Below, one piece after another: positions 54,178 to 60,958 of a DNA stretch of 64,000 bases (position 1 is the first letter of the stretch; each line of letters begins with the position of its first letter). The stretch is from Deltaproteobacteria bacterium (GTDB lineage: Bacteria; Desulfobacterota; Deferrimicrobia; Deferrimicrobiales; Deferrimicrobiaceae). Where the stretch lies: assembly GCA_021815305.1 (NCBI GenBank), contig JAKAHC010000001.1, positions 620,001 to 684,000 of the forward strand, in the 5' to 3' direction. The position numbers were made by a program, and so were the translations under genes. The notes beneath the pieces are model-generated. The model saw only the letters and a list, made by a program, of their open reading frames with translations, was not told the origin of the DNA and did no database searches.

Positions 54178-56166
54178 TCACTCGAGCACCCGGATGGGCA
54201 TCACGATCATCGGCTGCCCCGAGAAGACGATCTTTTTCTGCGCGAGGAACGCCGTCTGGTTGTGGAGCAGCTTGTCGAAGAAGCTCTCCTCGCGGAAGAC
54301 CAGCTGCCCGGCGAAGAAGACCACGTTGGGAAAATCGGCCGTCACCTGCTCCGAGAGGTGCTGGAGCGTCTCGATGACATCCGTGCCCACCTTCTGCCGG
54401 GCCTCCGCGTAGTATCCGTGCCCTTTCGCGAACTCCACGTAGTTCCGGAGCTGGGCGCGCAGGTCCCCGGACAGGTTCTCGATCTCCGCCACCCCCTTGA
54501 ACCGGCTGGTGTCGATCACGCCGGCGGACAGGAAGATGAAGTTCCGGAACGTCCCCGGAAAGGACCGGACGATCGAGAAGAACACGTGCATTCCCAGGCC
54601 GTTGTACCCCGACACCATGATGGCGGCGGTGGGCGCCTGCCTTCGGATCATCGGCTCCTGGACGGAGGAAAGGGTGGGCGCGGGGAGGTTGAGGAGGAGG
54701 TCGTCGAGCCGCCGCAGCTGCTCCGCGGCCTTGCGGTAGTGGCGGCGGACGAGGAAACTCGTCGCGCAGAACGAGCCCGTGATGAGCAGCGTGACCCATC
54801 CCCCCTCGGGGAATTTCATCCAGACGGTCGTGACGAGGATGAACCCGGTGAGGAAGAACCCGACCCCGTTGATCGCAAGCCCCGGCTTCCACCCCCGCGC
54901 CGACGCCCGGTCCTTCCACCAGTGGCGGCACATCCCGAACTGCGACAGGCTGAAGGTCAGGAACACGTTGATCGAGTACATGATCACGAGGTGCCGGACG
55001 GAGCCGCCGGTGAGGAAGAGCATCAGGAACGCCATCCCGCCCATGAAGTAGACCCCGTACTTGGTCACCAGCCGCTCGGAGAGATGGGCGAACCGGTGGG
55101 GCATGTAGGAGTCCACCGCCATGTTGGAGAGGACCTGCGGCCCTCCGAGGAACCCCGTCTGCGCCGCCACGAACAGGAGCACCGCCTCCGTGAAGAGGAC
55201 GAAGGCGGCGAAGAGCTCGGCGCTCTCCCCCCTCCAAAGGTCGTTCACCAGGTCTCCGAAGAGGACGGCGTTCAGCGTCTTTCCGTGGACCGGCTTCACG
55301 CCGTTGAGGACGTACCCGAGGATGATCCCGCCGGCAAGGAACGACAGGGACACCGCCATGTAGCCCATGGCCCGCTTCCCCGTCTGGACGCGAGGCTCCC
55401 GAAGCGTCTGCATGGAGTTGCTCACCGCCTCGATCCCCGTGTACGTGCCGGCGCCCATCGAGTAGGCGCGCAGCAGCAGCGCGAAGACGCCGAGCCACCC
55501 CACCTCCCGGGACGCGGCGGAGAGATCGGTGGAGACGCGGGTGGCCACGGCGGGCAGGTCCGCCGCGTGGCGCAGCACCGCGTAAAGGACCAGCGGGACG
55601 TGGGTCAGCAGGAACGCCATGAAGATCGGAGTGAGCACCAGCACCGACTCCTTGACGCCCCGGAGATTGATCCAGATGAGGAACAGGAGGACGAAGGCGA
55701 CGAACCAGAACTTGTACGCCAGCCAGGAGGGAGGGAGGAAGCTGAAGATGGCGTCCGCTCCCGCCGCGACGGAGATGGTGATCGTCAGGACGTAGTCGAT
55801 GACCAGCGCCGAGCCGGAGACCACTCCGGCCTTCTCCCCGAGAAGCTTCGACGCGACGATGTACCCGCCCCCGCCCGAGGGGAACGCCTCGATGATCTGC
55901 GCGTAGCTCCCCGAGATGACGAGGACGGTGATCACCGTGGCGGCCGCCACGAAGAGGGCGAGGACGGTGTGTCCCCCCAGGGCGAGATACGCTTCCTCCG
56001 GCCCGTACGACGAGGAGGAGATCCCGTCCGCTCCCAGTCCCACCCATGCGAAGAAGGCGATCAGGGATACGTGGTGGAAGATGTTCGGGTCGAAGATGTC
56101 GCGCGGGGCCCCCAGCAGGACCCTCTTGACGCGCTGGTAGACGGCGCCGTTCCGCATCGGTTTCAC
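54178..56166 (-). CDS. APC superfamily permease, copy 2
   Basis: A 662-residue permease with about 12 membrane segments (first ~470 residues), sharing the family opening LIAFFAWVGLGADGISSSSYGPEEAYLAL and the SYAQIIEAFPSGGGGYIVASKLLGE motif. A ~180-residue cytoplasmic C-terminal domain follows, with RRQAPTAAIMVSGYNGLGMHVFFSIVRSF and repeated Rossmann-like segments (FPNVVFFAGQLVF). It is an APC-family amino acid or cation transporter of unknown substrate. Only 15 bases separate it from copy 1, with which it shares extensive identity, so it arose by tandem duplication. Confidence 0.85.
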   Translation of the reverse strand: MKPMRNGAVYQRVKRVLLGAPRDIFDPNIFHHVSLIAFFAWVGLGADGISSSSYGPEEAYLALGGHTVLALFVAAATVITVLVISGSYAQIIEAFPSGGGGYIVASKLLGEKAGVVSGSALVIDYVLTITISVAAGADAIFSFLPPSWLAYKFWFVAFVLLFLIWINLRGVKESVLVLTPIFMAFLLTHVPLVLYAVLRHAADLPAVATRVSTDLSAASREVGWLGVFALLLRAYSMGAGTYTGIEAVSNSMQTLREPRVQTGKRAMGYMAVSLSFLAGGIILGYVLNGVKPVHGKTLNAVLFGDLVNDLWRGESAELFAAFVLFTEAVLLFVAAQTGFLGGPQVLSNMAVDSYMPHRFAHLSERLVTKYGVYFMGGMAFLMLFLTGGSVRHLVIMYSINVFLTFSLSQFGMCRHWWKDRASARGWKPGLAINGVGFFLTGFILVTTVWMKFPEGGWVTLLITGSFCATSFLVRRHYRKAAEQLRRLDDLLLNLPAPTLSSVQEPMIRRQAPTAAIMVSGYNGLGMHVFFSIVRSFPGTFRNFIFLSAGVIDTSRFKGVAEIENLSGDLRAQLRNYVEFAKGHGYYAEARQKVGTDVIETLQHLSEQVTADFPNVVFFAGQLVFREESFFDKLLHNQTAFLAQKKIVFSGQPMIVMPIRVLE

Positions 56167-56181
56167 GGTCTCCGTTCCCCG

Positions 56182-58158
56182 CTACAGCACCCGGATGGGG
56201 AGGACGACCATCGGCAATCCCGCGAACACCAGCCGTTTCTGCGCCATGAGCGCGGTCTGGTTGTGGAGAAGCTTGTCGAGGAAATTCTCCTCCCGGAAGA
56301 CGAGCTTCCCGGCGAAGACGGTGATGTTGGGGAAGTCCTTCGCGGTTTCCTCGGCGAGCTGGGCGACGCATTCGATGGCGTCGGTCCCCACCTTGGTGCG
56401 CGCCTCCGCGTAATAGCCGTGCCCTTTCGCGAATTCCACGTAATTCCGGATCTGCCCCTCGAGGTCGTGCGCCAGGTTCTCCACCTCGGCGGCGCCCTTG
56501 AACACGCTCGTGTCGATCACGCCGGCGGAGATGAACACGAAGTTCCGGAACATCCCGGGGAACTGCCGGATGACCGAGAAGAGAACGTGCATTCCCATGC
56601 CGTTGTACCCGGAGACCATGATGACCGCGGTGGGGGCCTGTCGGCGGGCGACCGGCTCCTGGGCGGACGGGACGGTCACGGGGGGGAGGGCCAGGAGCAG
56701 CTCGTCCAGCCGCTTCAGGTTCTCCTGGGCGGCGCGGTAATGGCGCCGGATCCCGAAGCTCGCGGCGACGAACAGGCCGGTGATGAGGAGGGTCACCCAC
56801 CCCCCCTCGGGGAACTTGAACCAGATCGTCAGGCAAAGCACGGATGCGGTCACCAGGAACCCCACGCCGTTCATCGCGATCCCGAACTTCCACTTCTTCT
56901 CCGATCCCCGGTCCTTCCACCAGTGCAGGACCATCCCGAACTGCGAAAGGGAGAAGGTCAGGAACACGTTGATGGAGTACATGATGACGAGGTACTTTAC
57001 GGACCCGCCGGAGATGTAGAGCATGAGCAGCGCCATGCCGCCCATGAACACCACGCCGTACTTTCGGACCAGCCGCTCGGAGAGGTGGGCGAACCGCCTC
57101 GGGGCGTAATAGTCCAGCGCCATGTTGGAGAGCACCTGCGGGCCGTCGATGATGCCGGTCTGCGCCGCGATGAACAGGAGCGCCGTCTCCGATCCCAGCA
57201 CCACCGCCAGGAGGACCTTCCCCCCATCCCCCCGCCACAGGTCCGCCATGACCTTTTCGAAGAGCACGGCGTTCAGCGTCCTCCCCTGGACCGGGGCCAC
57301 CCGGTAGAGGAGGTAGCTGAGGAGGATCCCCCCCGCAAGGAACGACAGGGAGAGCGCCATGTACGCCATCGCCTTCTTGCCGGTGTGGACGCGCGGCTCG
57401 CGCAGCGTCTGCATGGAGTTGCTCACCGCCTCGATCCCGGTGAACGTCCCGCCGCCCATCGAGAAAGCGCGCATGAGGAGCGCCCCCAGCCCGAGCCACC
57501 CCATCTGCCCCAGGGAGAAGCGGAAGTCGCGGGACACGTCGGCGGCCACCGCGGGCATCTCGGGGATGTGGCGAAGCACCGCGTAGAGCAGGAGGGGCAC
57601 ATGGGTCAGTATGAACACCATGAAGATGGGTGTGAAGACGGCGACGGACTCCTTCACCCCCCGCAGGTTCATCCAGATGAGGATGAAGATCACGAGAGTG
57701 ACGAACCAGATCCGGTAGTGGAGGAGGTCCGGGGGGAGGATGCTGAAGAAAGCGTCCGCGCCGGAGGCGATCGATATGGTGACCGTCAGGATGTAGTCGA
57801 TGACAAGGGCGGAGCCCGAGATCACCCCGGCCCTCTCCCCGAGGAGCTTCGATGCGACGATGTACCCGCCCCCGCCCGAGGGAAACGCCTCGATGATCTG
57901 CGCGTAGCTCCCCGAGATGATCAGGATCGTGCCCACCGTCATCATGGCGACGAAGATCGCCAGCACAGAGTGCCTGCCCAGCGCAAGGAACGCCTCCTCC
58001 GGGCCGTAGCAGGAGGAGGAGATCCCGTCCGCGCCCAGCCCCACCCATGCGAAGAAGGCGATCAGGGAGATGTGCTGGAAGATCTTCGGGTCGAAGAGAT
58101 CCCGGGGAGCGCCGAGGAAGATCCGCCTGGCGCGCCGGTAAATGGATTCGTTTTCCAT
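56182..58158 (-). CDS. APC superfamily permease, copy 1
   Basis: A 658-residue paralogue of the downstream gene with the same architecture: 12 membrane segments (LIAFFAWVGLGADGISSSCYGPEEAFLAL; SYAQIIEAFPSGGGGYIVASKLLGE), then a soluble C-terminal domain (VIMVSGYNGMGMHVLFSVIRQF; YYAEARTKVGTDAIE). A TATAAT at 58215-58210 about 50 bases upstream may be the promoter for both. No Shine-Dalgarno is evident. Substrate is unknown. The C-terminal domain suggests cytoplasmic regulation, reminiscent of KUP-type or CCC-like arrangements. Confidence 0.85.
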   Translation of the reverse strand: MENESIYRRARRIFLGAPRDLFDPKIFQHISLIAFFAWVGLGADGISSSCYGPEEAFLALGRHSVLAIFVAMMTVGTILIISGSYAQIIEAFPSGGGGYIVASKLLGERAGVISGSALVIDYILTVTISIASGADAFFSILPPDLLHYRIWFVTLVIFILIWMNLRGVKESVAVFTPIFMVFILTHVPLLLYAVLRHIPEMPAVAADVSRDFRFSLGQMGWLGLGALLMRAFSMGGGTFTGIEAVSNSMQTLREPRVHTGKKAMAYMALSLSFLAGGILLSYLLYRVAPVQGRTLNAVLFEKVMADLWRGDGGKVLLAVVLGSETALLFIAAQTGIIDGPQVLSNMALDYYAPRRFAHLSERLVRKYGVVFMGGMALLMLYISGGSVKYLVIMYSINVFLTFSLSQFGMVLHWWKDRGSEKKWKFGIAMNGVGFLVTASVLCLTIWFKFPEGGWVTLLITGLFVAASFGIRRHYRAAQENLKRLDELLLALPPVTVPSAQEPVARRQAPTAVIMVSGYNGMGMHVLFSVIRQFPGMFRNFVFISAGVIDTSVFKGAAEVENLAHDLEGQIRNYVEFAKGHGYYAEARTKVGTDAIECVAQLAEETAKDFPNITVFAGKLVFREENFLDKLLHNQTALMAQKRLVFAGLPMVVLPIRVL

Positions 58159-58816: not shown

Positions 58817-59299
58817 TTACCACTCGTCCCGGAACGGCACATCGACGCGATCGTACCACTCCGAAAAGTCCATGGGTTGATGCGGAGGAAGTCCCCTCTC
58901 GTGGAGGAGGTCGTCGATCACGCGGTGGGCAAAGGACAGGGCGTTGTCCATGAACCGGAGGGAATCCGGCGACTCTTCCGACGGGTCCGCGGCCTGGTGC
59001 GCCTCGACCGCCCTGGCGAGGTCGCGCTCCGCGGCGGGGAGGTCCTGGCCGGTGAGGGCCTGCCCGATGGCGGCGAGATGGCGGCCGATCCGGTGGTACG
59101 CGCGGCGGACCTCCATGGGGGAAGCGTCGATGCCGCGCCACGCGCCGAAGTAGAGCGCGTCGTGGCCGGCGCGCAACGACGCGTACGCCAGCCCGTCGTA
59201 GGGGCAGCCGGGCTTCCCGCCGGGCCCCGTCCCGGCGCCCCGGGAGGCGCACCGCAACTCCGCCCCGCAGTTGGGGCAATGGATGACGGCGGCCGGCAT
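58817..59299 (-). CDS. zinc-ribbon-containing protein of unknown function
   Basis: About 160 residues. It opens with a half zinc ribbon (VIHCPNCGAELRCASRG) and a second Cys in KPGCPYDGLAY, which could complete one metal site. The rest is a helical bundle (VRRAYHRIGRHLAAIGQALTGQDLPAAERDLARAV, in parts). The ATG at 59299 is chosen because GATAAT lies exactly six bases upstream. An ATG at 59335 would add 12 residues. Divergent from the LexA-like gene, with the palindromic operator between them. Confidence 0.6.
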   Translation of the reverse strand: MPAAVIHCPNCGAELRCASRGAGTGPGGKPGCPYDGLAYASLRAGHDALYFGAWRGIDASPMEVRRAYHRIGRHLAAIGQALTGQDLPAAERDLARAVEAHQAADPSEESPDSLRFMDNALSFAHRVIDDLLHERGLPPHQPMDFSEWYDRVDVPFRDEW

Positions 59300-59305
59300 G
59301 CGGAG

Positions 59306-59311
59306 ATTATC
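59306..59311 (-). promoter_or_regulatory. -10-like GATAAT six bases before the zinc-ribbon gene ATG
   Basis: GATAAT then CTCCGC then ATG. The sixth leaderless-type arrangement in the window. Confidence 0.4.
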
Positions 59312-59327
59312 GCGCGTGTTGTCCTGC

Positions 59328-59348
59328 GGTAACATGGTATGTTACCAT
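59328..59348. promoter_or_regulatory. LexA-type palindromic operator
   Basis: ggtaacat-ggt-atgttacc (59328-59346) has perfect 8-base arms. An overlapping atggta-tgt-taccat (59334-59348) forms a second palindrome. It sits between the divergent lexA-like gene, whose ATG is at 59357, and the zinc-ribbon gene, and could repress both. Confidence 0.65.
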
Positions 59349-59356
59349 ACATATCA

Positions 59357-59986
59357 ATGGAACGCCTGACCCCTTCCCAGCGACGAGTCCTCTCCTTCCT
59401 GCAGGAGTTCGCGACCCGGAACCGCTTCGCGCCCACCGCGAAGGAGATCGCGGCGCATTTCGGGATCGCGGAGAAGAACGCCTTCTACTACCTCGACCTG
59501 CTGGAACGGAAGGGGTTCCTCCGCCGGAAGCGGCACAGCCCGCGCCGGATCGAGTTCACGGAGAAGAGCGCCCCCTACCGACCGCCCCGCCGCGTCCTCG
59601 TCCTGGGGCGGGTTCCCGCGGGCCCGCCGGGGGAGGCGATCGAGGATGCCGGGGAGGCTCTGTTCCTCGACCCCCTGTTGGCCGGCGACGGGGAAGTGTA
59701 CGCCCTGCGCGTTTCGGGGGACCGCATGACGGGGGCGGGGATCCGCGGCGGGGACTACATCCTGGTCCGCCCGCAGGAAACGGCCTCGGACGGCGAGATC
59801 GTGGTGGCCGTCGTCGCCGGGCAAGCTACCGTGAAGCGGTTCCGGAGGCTCGCGGTCGGCGTGCGTCTCGAGTCGGAGAACCCGGCCTGCCCGCCCCTGC
59901 CCCTCCCTTCGATCTCCGGCGAGGCGGCGGCGTCACCGTCTCTGCGCATCGCGGGCAAGATCGTCGGCCTGTTCCGGAAGATGTAG
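59357..59986 (+). CDS. LexA-family repressor lacking catalytic serine
   Basis: A 209-residue protein with LexA architecture: winged helix (1-~70, MERLTPSQRRVLSFLQEFAT ... IAAHFGIAEKNAFYYLDLLERKGFL), the Ala-Gly cleavage-site pair at 88-89 (GRVPAGPPG), and the S24 domain with Lys160 (QATVKRF). The nucleophile serine is replaced by arginine (SGDRM, Arg123). Relative to E. coli LexA the three key sites are all shifted by +4 (84/85 to 88/89, 119 to 123, 156 to 160), so the alignment is unambiguous. It should bind DNA but not self-cleave. Confidence 0.85.
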   Translation: MERLTPSQRRVLSFLQEFATRNRFAPTAKEIAAHFGIAEKNAFYYLDLLERKGFLRRKRHSPRRIEFTEKSAPYRPPRRVLVLGRVPAGPPGEAIEDAGEALFLDPLLAGDGEVYALRVSGDRMTGAGIRGGDYILVRPQETASDGEIVVAVVAGQATVKRFRRLAVGVRLESENPACPPLPLPSISGEAAASPSLRIAGKIVGLFRKM

Positions 59987-60196
59987 GGGGAGCGCATGAC
60001 GCCCGCGCTACACCGGATCGGTACGGTCGCGCTGTGCGCGCCCTCGACTCTTGTGGCACGACACGGCGCGCGGCGAATAAACTACGTTTCACGATCTGAA
60101 CTGCGAACCCGCAATCTCATTCGCGTTCGTTGCTGCATGCGGGAAAACACACTTCAGTAACCTGGCGATATCAGGCAAACAAGGAGGCTTTTCTAA
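59987..60196. other. 210-bp gap before the AT-rich FkbM gene
   Basis: No gene or terminator is seen. Composition shifts from GC-rich to AT-rich near 60170, marking the left edge of the foreign-looking segment. AAGGAGGCTTTTCTAA ends the gap and serves as the FkbM ribosome-binding site. Confidence 0.5.
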
Positions 60197-60958
60197 ATGA
60201 GATATTTAAATATGATAAGAAATATAACCAATTGGCCATTGCATATAAAATACAAACTTGGAGTAAAAACACCAGATCCGCTTGAATTTATGCTAAAAAA
60301 TGGCATTAACTGTGAGGTACCAAAAAGATTATATCATGAATTCAAAATGATATTCTTCGAAAATACGTACAGAGTCGGGCATAACAAAAGAATAATTAAT
60401 CAAAATCCGATAATAATAGATATAGGAGCCAATGTGGGATTTTTTTCTGCCTTTGCCATTTCGAAATTCCCAAATTGCAATGTATATTCGTATGAACCGG
60501 TTGGAGCGAATTTCAAACAATTATTAAGGAATAGCGAGCTAAATCCCGACAAGAGCTTCAAATGTTTCAACAATGCTGTTTGTGGACACAAAGGAACGAT
60601 AAGAATAAACTTTGAAAAACATGATGAATTTACGACATCGGCAACCATAAAGGACAACGATAAGGGGAATATGGTATCTATAGAAGTACCTTGTTTGAGA
60701 CTTAGTGATATATTTGATGATAATAATATAGATAAATGTGACTTTCTGAAAATAGATTGCGAAGGAGCTGAATACGATGTGCTATACAATACACCAACAA
60801 CATACATTGATAGAATAGATCAAATGGTAATAGAAGTACATCACGATAATTATGGAAAGGAAAACCTGGAATCTCTCAGAGATTTCTTGATTACAAACAA
60901 GTTTAATTTATTCCAGTTCCGCAATCGGCCCGGCTTGTTATGGGCTTATCGCACCTGA
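60197..60958 (+). CDS. FkbM-family methyltransferase, AT-rich and probably acquired
   Basis: A 253-residue SAM-dependent methyltransferase of the FkbM family, often acting on surface sugars. Motif I reads NPIIIDIGANVGFFSAFAIS, then VYSYEPVGANFKQL and FLKIDCEGAEYDVLYNTP. Codon usage is strikingly AT-rich (AAA, ATA, AAT dominate), unlike every other gene in the window, so it was very likely acquired by transfer. AAGGAGG precedes the ATG. It ends convergently with the heptosyltransferase gene. Confidence 0.88.
   Translation: MRYLNMIRNITNWPLHIKYKLGVKTPDPLEFMLKNGINCEVPKRLYHEFKMIFFENTYRVGHNKRIINQNPIIIDIGANVGFFSAFAISKFPNCNVYSYEPVGANFKQLLRNSELNPDKSFKCFNNAVCGHKGTIRINFEKHDEFTTSATIKDNDKGNMVSIEVPCLRLSDIFDDNNIDKCDFLKIDCEGAEYDVLYNTPTTYIDRIDQMVIEVHHDNYGKENLESLRDFLITNKFNLFQFRNRPGLLWAYRT

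Follow-up and report, generated by a model that had tools for sequence, protein, structure and literature searches.

Bacterial PolB2 mutasomes consist of iRadA, PPB2, and PolB2, and lexA is enriched near polB2 in bacteria (PMC11791011); the same four-gene association of lexA with iRadA-PPB2-PolB2 has been described in Leptospirillum (PMC4104785). Both this LexA-PolB2 linkage and the natural loss of the catalytic serine of LexA are already known, the latter from Synechocystis sp. PCC 6803, whose LexA has Asp in place of Ser and Gly-Gly in place of Ala-Gly and regulates non-SOS genes (PMC3091678, PMC4759255). We describe here a lexA gene from a member of the Deferrimicrobiaceae (Deltaproteobacteria bacterium, GenBank assembly GCA_021815305.1), found in a 64,000-nucleotide stretch of contig JAKAHC010000001.1 (positions 620,001 to 684,000), which we call the window and to which coordinates refer unless a relative is named. 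The reading we favor, and consider probable on comparative sequence evidence, is that a LexA with a single target cassette has lost both the cassette and its own self-cleavage chemistry, leaving a non-inducible autorepressor.

Identity and catalytic residues of the window LexA

The window lexA (59357..59986, plus strand) encodes 209 amino acids and was identified from its match to TIGR00498 (137.3 bits over residues 1-209, cut-off 110.95), from an alignment of 108 proteins, and from an AlphaFold model. Both LexA domains were matched, the winged helix-turn-helix by PF01726 (47.9 bits) and the S24 domain by PF00717 (87.8 bits), and the fold of LexA is preserved in the model (mean pLDDT 84), whose best structural matches are LexA structures 3k2z and 3jso. 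A second in-frame ATG lies upstream at 59339; we prefer the start at 59357 because the start is conserved and because of the position of the operator. In the alignment, Arg123 (codon CGC, 59723..59725) takes the position of E. coli Ser119, the conserved cleavage bond Ala88-Gly89 (59618..59623) that of Ala84-Gly85, and Lys160 (59834..59836) that of Lys156. The Ser-Lys catalytic dyad is thus incomplete, with Lys160 present and the Ser replaced by Arg123. These results agree with the sequence-only reading, which had placed an Arg at the Ser119 position with codon CGC, as the alignment confirms, and had listed Ala88-Gly89, Lys160, and the LexA winged helix-turn-helix as retained, as the alignment, PF01726, and TIGR00498 confirm. 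By its sequence, the window protein is a LexA orthologue by descent, and we do not file it as a self-cleaving LexA.

Slilaty and Little reportedly found in 1987 that Ser119 and Lys156 are both required in E. coli LexA. Because the catalytic nucleophile is missing, the window LexA is expected not to self-cleave, and the earlier proposal that it would bind its operator and not self-cleave is what we too would expect, given a missing nucleophile alongside a conserved DNA-binding domain and operator.

Loss of the serine is rare. Our alignment comprised the window protein, 29 LexA of relatives belonging to its phylum, and 78 drawn broadly from bacteria across many phyla; the patterns that retrieved this last group left out the Ser position. 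Ser occupies this position in 107 of the 108 sequences and Arg in the window protein alone, while Lys160, Ala88, Gly89, and Met124 are invariant in all 108; in a wide set of genome contigs, to which the window genome does not belong, Ser was likewise found in 80 of 80 LexA. Judged by these counts, the change from Ser to Arg123 is a departure far beyond chance. All five of the nearest relatives checked have AGC (Ser) at this codon, from which CGC can be derived by one A-to-C transversion. The window LexA also carries P81L, D131G, and E156Q (E. coli P77, D127, and E152 by our own count) at positions that are strongly conserved and nearly invariant elsewhere. Over 53 group-conserved columns it departs four times, compared with 1, 0, 0, and 0 times in its four nearest relatives (Fisher p 0.006).

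One base change is also all that an artefact would need, and Arg123 rests on one assembly, so that the codon might reflect a mistake in sequencing or in the consensus, or the allele of a minor strain, in an organism that has Ser. However, one miscalled base does not account for P81L, D131G, and E156Q in the same protein, the reading frame is intact, the contig is 784 kb long, and the target cassette has been lost as well. We regard an artefactual Arg as quite improbable, and a sequencing or binning error behind it as unlikely.

A further proposal of the sequence-only reading, that this protein is a paralogue competing with a normal LexA, is contradicted by the genome. The assembly (2.77 Mb in 13 contigs, 97% complete) yielded no second LexA; two other clear S24 proteins score above the family cut-off, and both have a Cro/CI-type helix-turn-helix. 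Two lexA genes can coexist in one genome, as reported for Leptospira (PMC3789691), and a dominant-negative or modulating copy beside a normal LexA would have that precedent. Against this stand the absence of a second LexA from a 97% complete genome and the synteny of the window lexA with the single LexA of relative G002, and we give such a paralogue hardly any credence.

The PolB2 cassette and LexA boxes across the family

Downstream of lexA, and on its strand, the sister genomes carry iRadA, PPB2, and PolB2 in that order. The best solved-structure matches of iRadA are RadB/RadA by profile and RadA/Rad51 by fold; an ImuA-like identity was considered and dropped, since both searches favored RadA/RadB. 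The 96-amino-acid PPB2 of the sisters begins with MGRT, as published (PMC11791011), and their PolB2 is a family-B DNA polymerase (PF00136). With the bacterial gene order, the MGRT start of PPB2, and the RadA fold of iRadA, the sister loci belong to the LexA-PolB2 mutasomes as defined. In G013 (L083:5180-5700), short repeats with GGGGGACACTCT / AGAGTGTCCCCC are inserted near the end of iRadA and on either side of PPB2 and are possibly a mobile or REP-like element. In G009 (L119, contig C7, ~79.1-79.9 kb, minus strand), an apparent second lexA copy directly precedes iRadA; it joins ~30 first codons to ~17 last codons across a large internal deletion and has its own near-perfect box.

A box common to the family's lexA promoters, GTATGTTAACATAC, lies immediately ahead of the start codon. 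A scan of 24 family genomes for perfect GTATGN4CATAC only, a count outside which boxes of looser consensus fall, returned 22 boxes, versus 4 for a reversed-pattern control. Fifteen of the 22 lie in lexA promoters, four at mutasome genes or what is left of one, and three elsewhere. The four stand directly before iRadA and PolB2 of G008, PolB2 of G003, and the PolB2 remnant of G014, all at sites apart from lexA, and a common leader, box-CTATATGG, is found at the first three. No LexA box was found upstream of recA among the recA promoters listed, and we rejected control of recA by LexA on this basis; nor was there a perfect or one-mismatch box at any of the eight Y-family polymerase loci examined, one of them in the window genome. 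Family LexA therefore looks like a dedicated regulator of lexA itself and of the PolB2 mutasome, since the boxes are nearly all there and recA has none, and the box distribution points to an SOS regulon of very few genes, with recA outside it. This evidence adds weight to the published proposal that bacterial PolB2 mutasomes are under LexA control.

Box-like sequences also occur within genes. One at L042:1501-1514 recurs in G002, G007, G013, and G021; in the window genome it lies inside a GspE-like coding gene, where it encodes the peptide GMVTYDD. We dismissed this recurrent match as conservation of the coding sequence, and it serves as a warning against box scans made without gene context.

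The predicted operator of the window lexA, GTATGTTACCATAC (59337..59350), is a family box 6 bases before the ATG and the only perfect GTATGN4CATAC in the genome. At 59329-59350 it overlaps a second dyad, GGTAACATGGTATGTTACC, so that one LexA dimer bound there might either hinder or help the binding of another. A divergent gene of 172 amino acids (58817..59335, minus strand; no Pfam match) shares the operator region with lexA, an arrangement in which the operator lies between the two genes and which is common to G002, G004, and G012; it is a possible second LexA target. Farther upstream of lexA, two tandem genes on the minus strand (54178-58158) encode similar ~660-amino-acid transporter-like proteins, and similar proteins adjoin lexA in several relatives.

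Absence of the cassette and probable decay of the cleavage domain

Neither iRadA nor PolB2 has a match anywhere in the window genome, and on these two genes the absence of the cassette rests; a LexA-PolB2 mutasome comprises both, and the window genome falls outside that class. Directly after the lexA stop, local alignment found a putative remnant of the iRadA start, colinear with G002 (59987..60045, plus strand). It matches the G002 iRadA start over ~55 bases with a score of 22.5, which none of 1,000 shuffles reached, and aligns weakly or not at all with three other relatives. Beyond the remnant, GC content falls to ~0.3 from 0.7, and an AT-rich gene for an FkbM-type methyltransferase (60197..60958, plus strand; PF05050, E 9e-20), which is outside the LexA system, stands where the cassette would be. 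Glycan genes follow it; judged by reading, they resemble those that follow PolB2 in G002 and G007. Since this genome no longer has the genes that LexA targets, little remains to be induced. The sequence-only reading had proposed, as the alternative to a paralogue, that SOS control would have to work differently; this misplaces the problem, as LexA of this family apparently has no broad SOS regulon.

Related genomes present what look like other stages. G014 has a LexA with its Ser intact and a PolB2 with an internal deletion and a frameshift behind a LexA box (L090:1276-1770), and no iRadA was found in it. Close homologs of lexA, iRadA, and PolB2 were all absent from G006 (95% complete) and G018 (88%), absences that are weaker than those in the window genome because the relatives' genomes are fragmentary, and lexA remnants were found neither near the neighbor gene in G006 and G010 nor near recA in G018. 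The apparent stages run from an intact LexA with its cassette, through G014 and the window genome, to G006 and G018 with neither lexA, iRadA, nor PolB2. This compares different lineages and is not a dated series; it is consistent with a LexA that decayed after its cassette had been lost.

Change within the window LexA is concentrated in the cleavage domain. On a fixed tree, its terminal branch has a length of 0.286 substitutions per site when computed from the C-terminal domain, and of 0.025 when computed from the DNA-binding domain. Unique amino-acid changes are distributed 13:1 between the C- and N-terminal domains, versus 14:10 in four sisters (p 0.03), the DNA-binding domain having a single unique residue change. 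Tajima relative-rate tests mostly point in the same direction, with significance only versus one sister and with 2 of 5 outgroups, and the nonsynonymous-to-synonymous contrast for the window LexA was not significant (p 0.14). Together, these comparisons lend moderate support to a relaxed constraint on the cleavage domain, with the acceleration partly backed by the rate tests.

The near-unchanged DNA-binding domain bears on a different account, in which a natural, non-cleavable LexA was kept by selection after loss of the mutasome, as a stable, damage-independent, constitutive repressor of itself and possibly a regulator of the divergent 172-amino-acid gene. Besides that single unique change, the operator is intact and sits between lexA and the divergent gene as in three relatives, and the Synechocystis LexA without a catalytic Ser that regulates non-SOS genes (PMC4759255, PMC3091678) is a precedent. 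Yet the genome has one perfect box and so no sign of a new regulon, and conservation of the DNA-binding domain may reflect little elapsed time. We therefore consider selection for such a role doubtful, though it has a real share of the probability. If true, an organism that gave up inducible mutagenesis of this kind would have turned its SOS switch into a regulator that is fixed and blind to damage.

Relaxed constraint after loss of the cassette remains our preferred reading. Ancestrally, LexA of this family would mainly have repressed itself and the iRadA-PPB2-PolB2 translesion-polymerase cassette, and DNA damage would have turned the cassette on through RecA-stimulated self-cleavage of LexA. 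The window genome would then have lost the cassette through a deletion or replacement that began shortly after the start of iRadA. The orphaned LexA would have kept its operator and DNA-binding domain while constraint on the self-cleavage domain relaxed, and the catalytic Ser would then have become Arg123, while P81, D131, and E156 changed as well. What is left is expected to go on repressing its own promoter as a dimer, and perhaps the divergent gene too, blind to damage as far as self-cleavage is concerned; we call it a non-inducible autorepressor because operator binding probably persists. The sequence itself shows the residue changes, the absence of a second LexA and of iRadA and PolB2, where the boxes lie, and the short remnant; that the protein no longer cleaves itself, that it still binds DNA, and that the cassette went first are inferred. 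The window LexA looks like a leftover switch that is losing its moving part.

Comparison with described LexA systems

The combination of deleted targets, a lost Ser, a retained Ala-Gly bond, and a retained operator was not found in the literature searched, which extended to sources other than subscription journals. It offers a natural experiment on which part of a self-cleaving repressor decays first once its targets are lost, and in the window LexA the cleavage machinery appears to decay before the DNA-binding part.

Among known systems, the sister genomes resemble the published LexA-PolB2 mutasome operons, with lexA and iRadA-PPB2-PolB2 in the published bacterial order, whereas the window has lexA alone and the cassette is missing. 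The earlier reports (PMC4104785, PMC11791011) described linkage; the LexA-box evidence is added here and includes genomes whose cassette genes are separate from lexA. Laboratory non-cleavable alleles (E. coli S119A and P. aeruginosa S125A; PDB 1jhh and 8s7g) likewise have the nucleophile removed and the fold kept, and their structures are among the best structural matches of the window LexA model, but the window protein is natural, carries a bulky, charged Arg, and has further departures. Synechocystis sp. PCC 6803 offers a parallel in its natural loss of the catalytic Ser, its long LexA branch, and a LexA that is no canonical SOS regulator; the window LexA differs from it in having Arg at the Ser position, in retaining Ala-Gly, and in the deletion of its targets.
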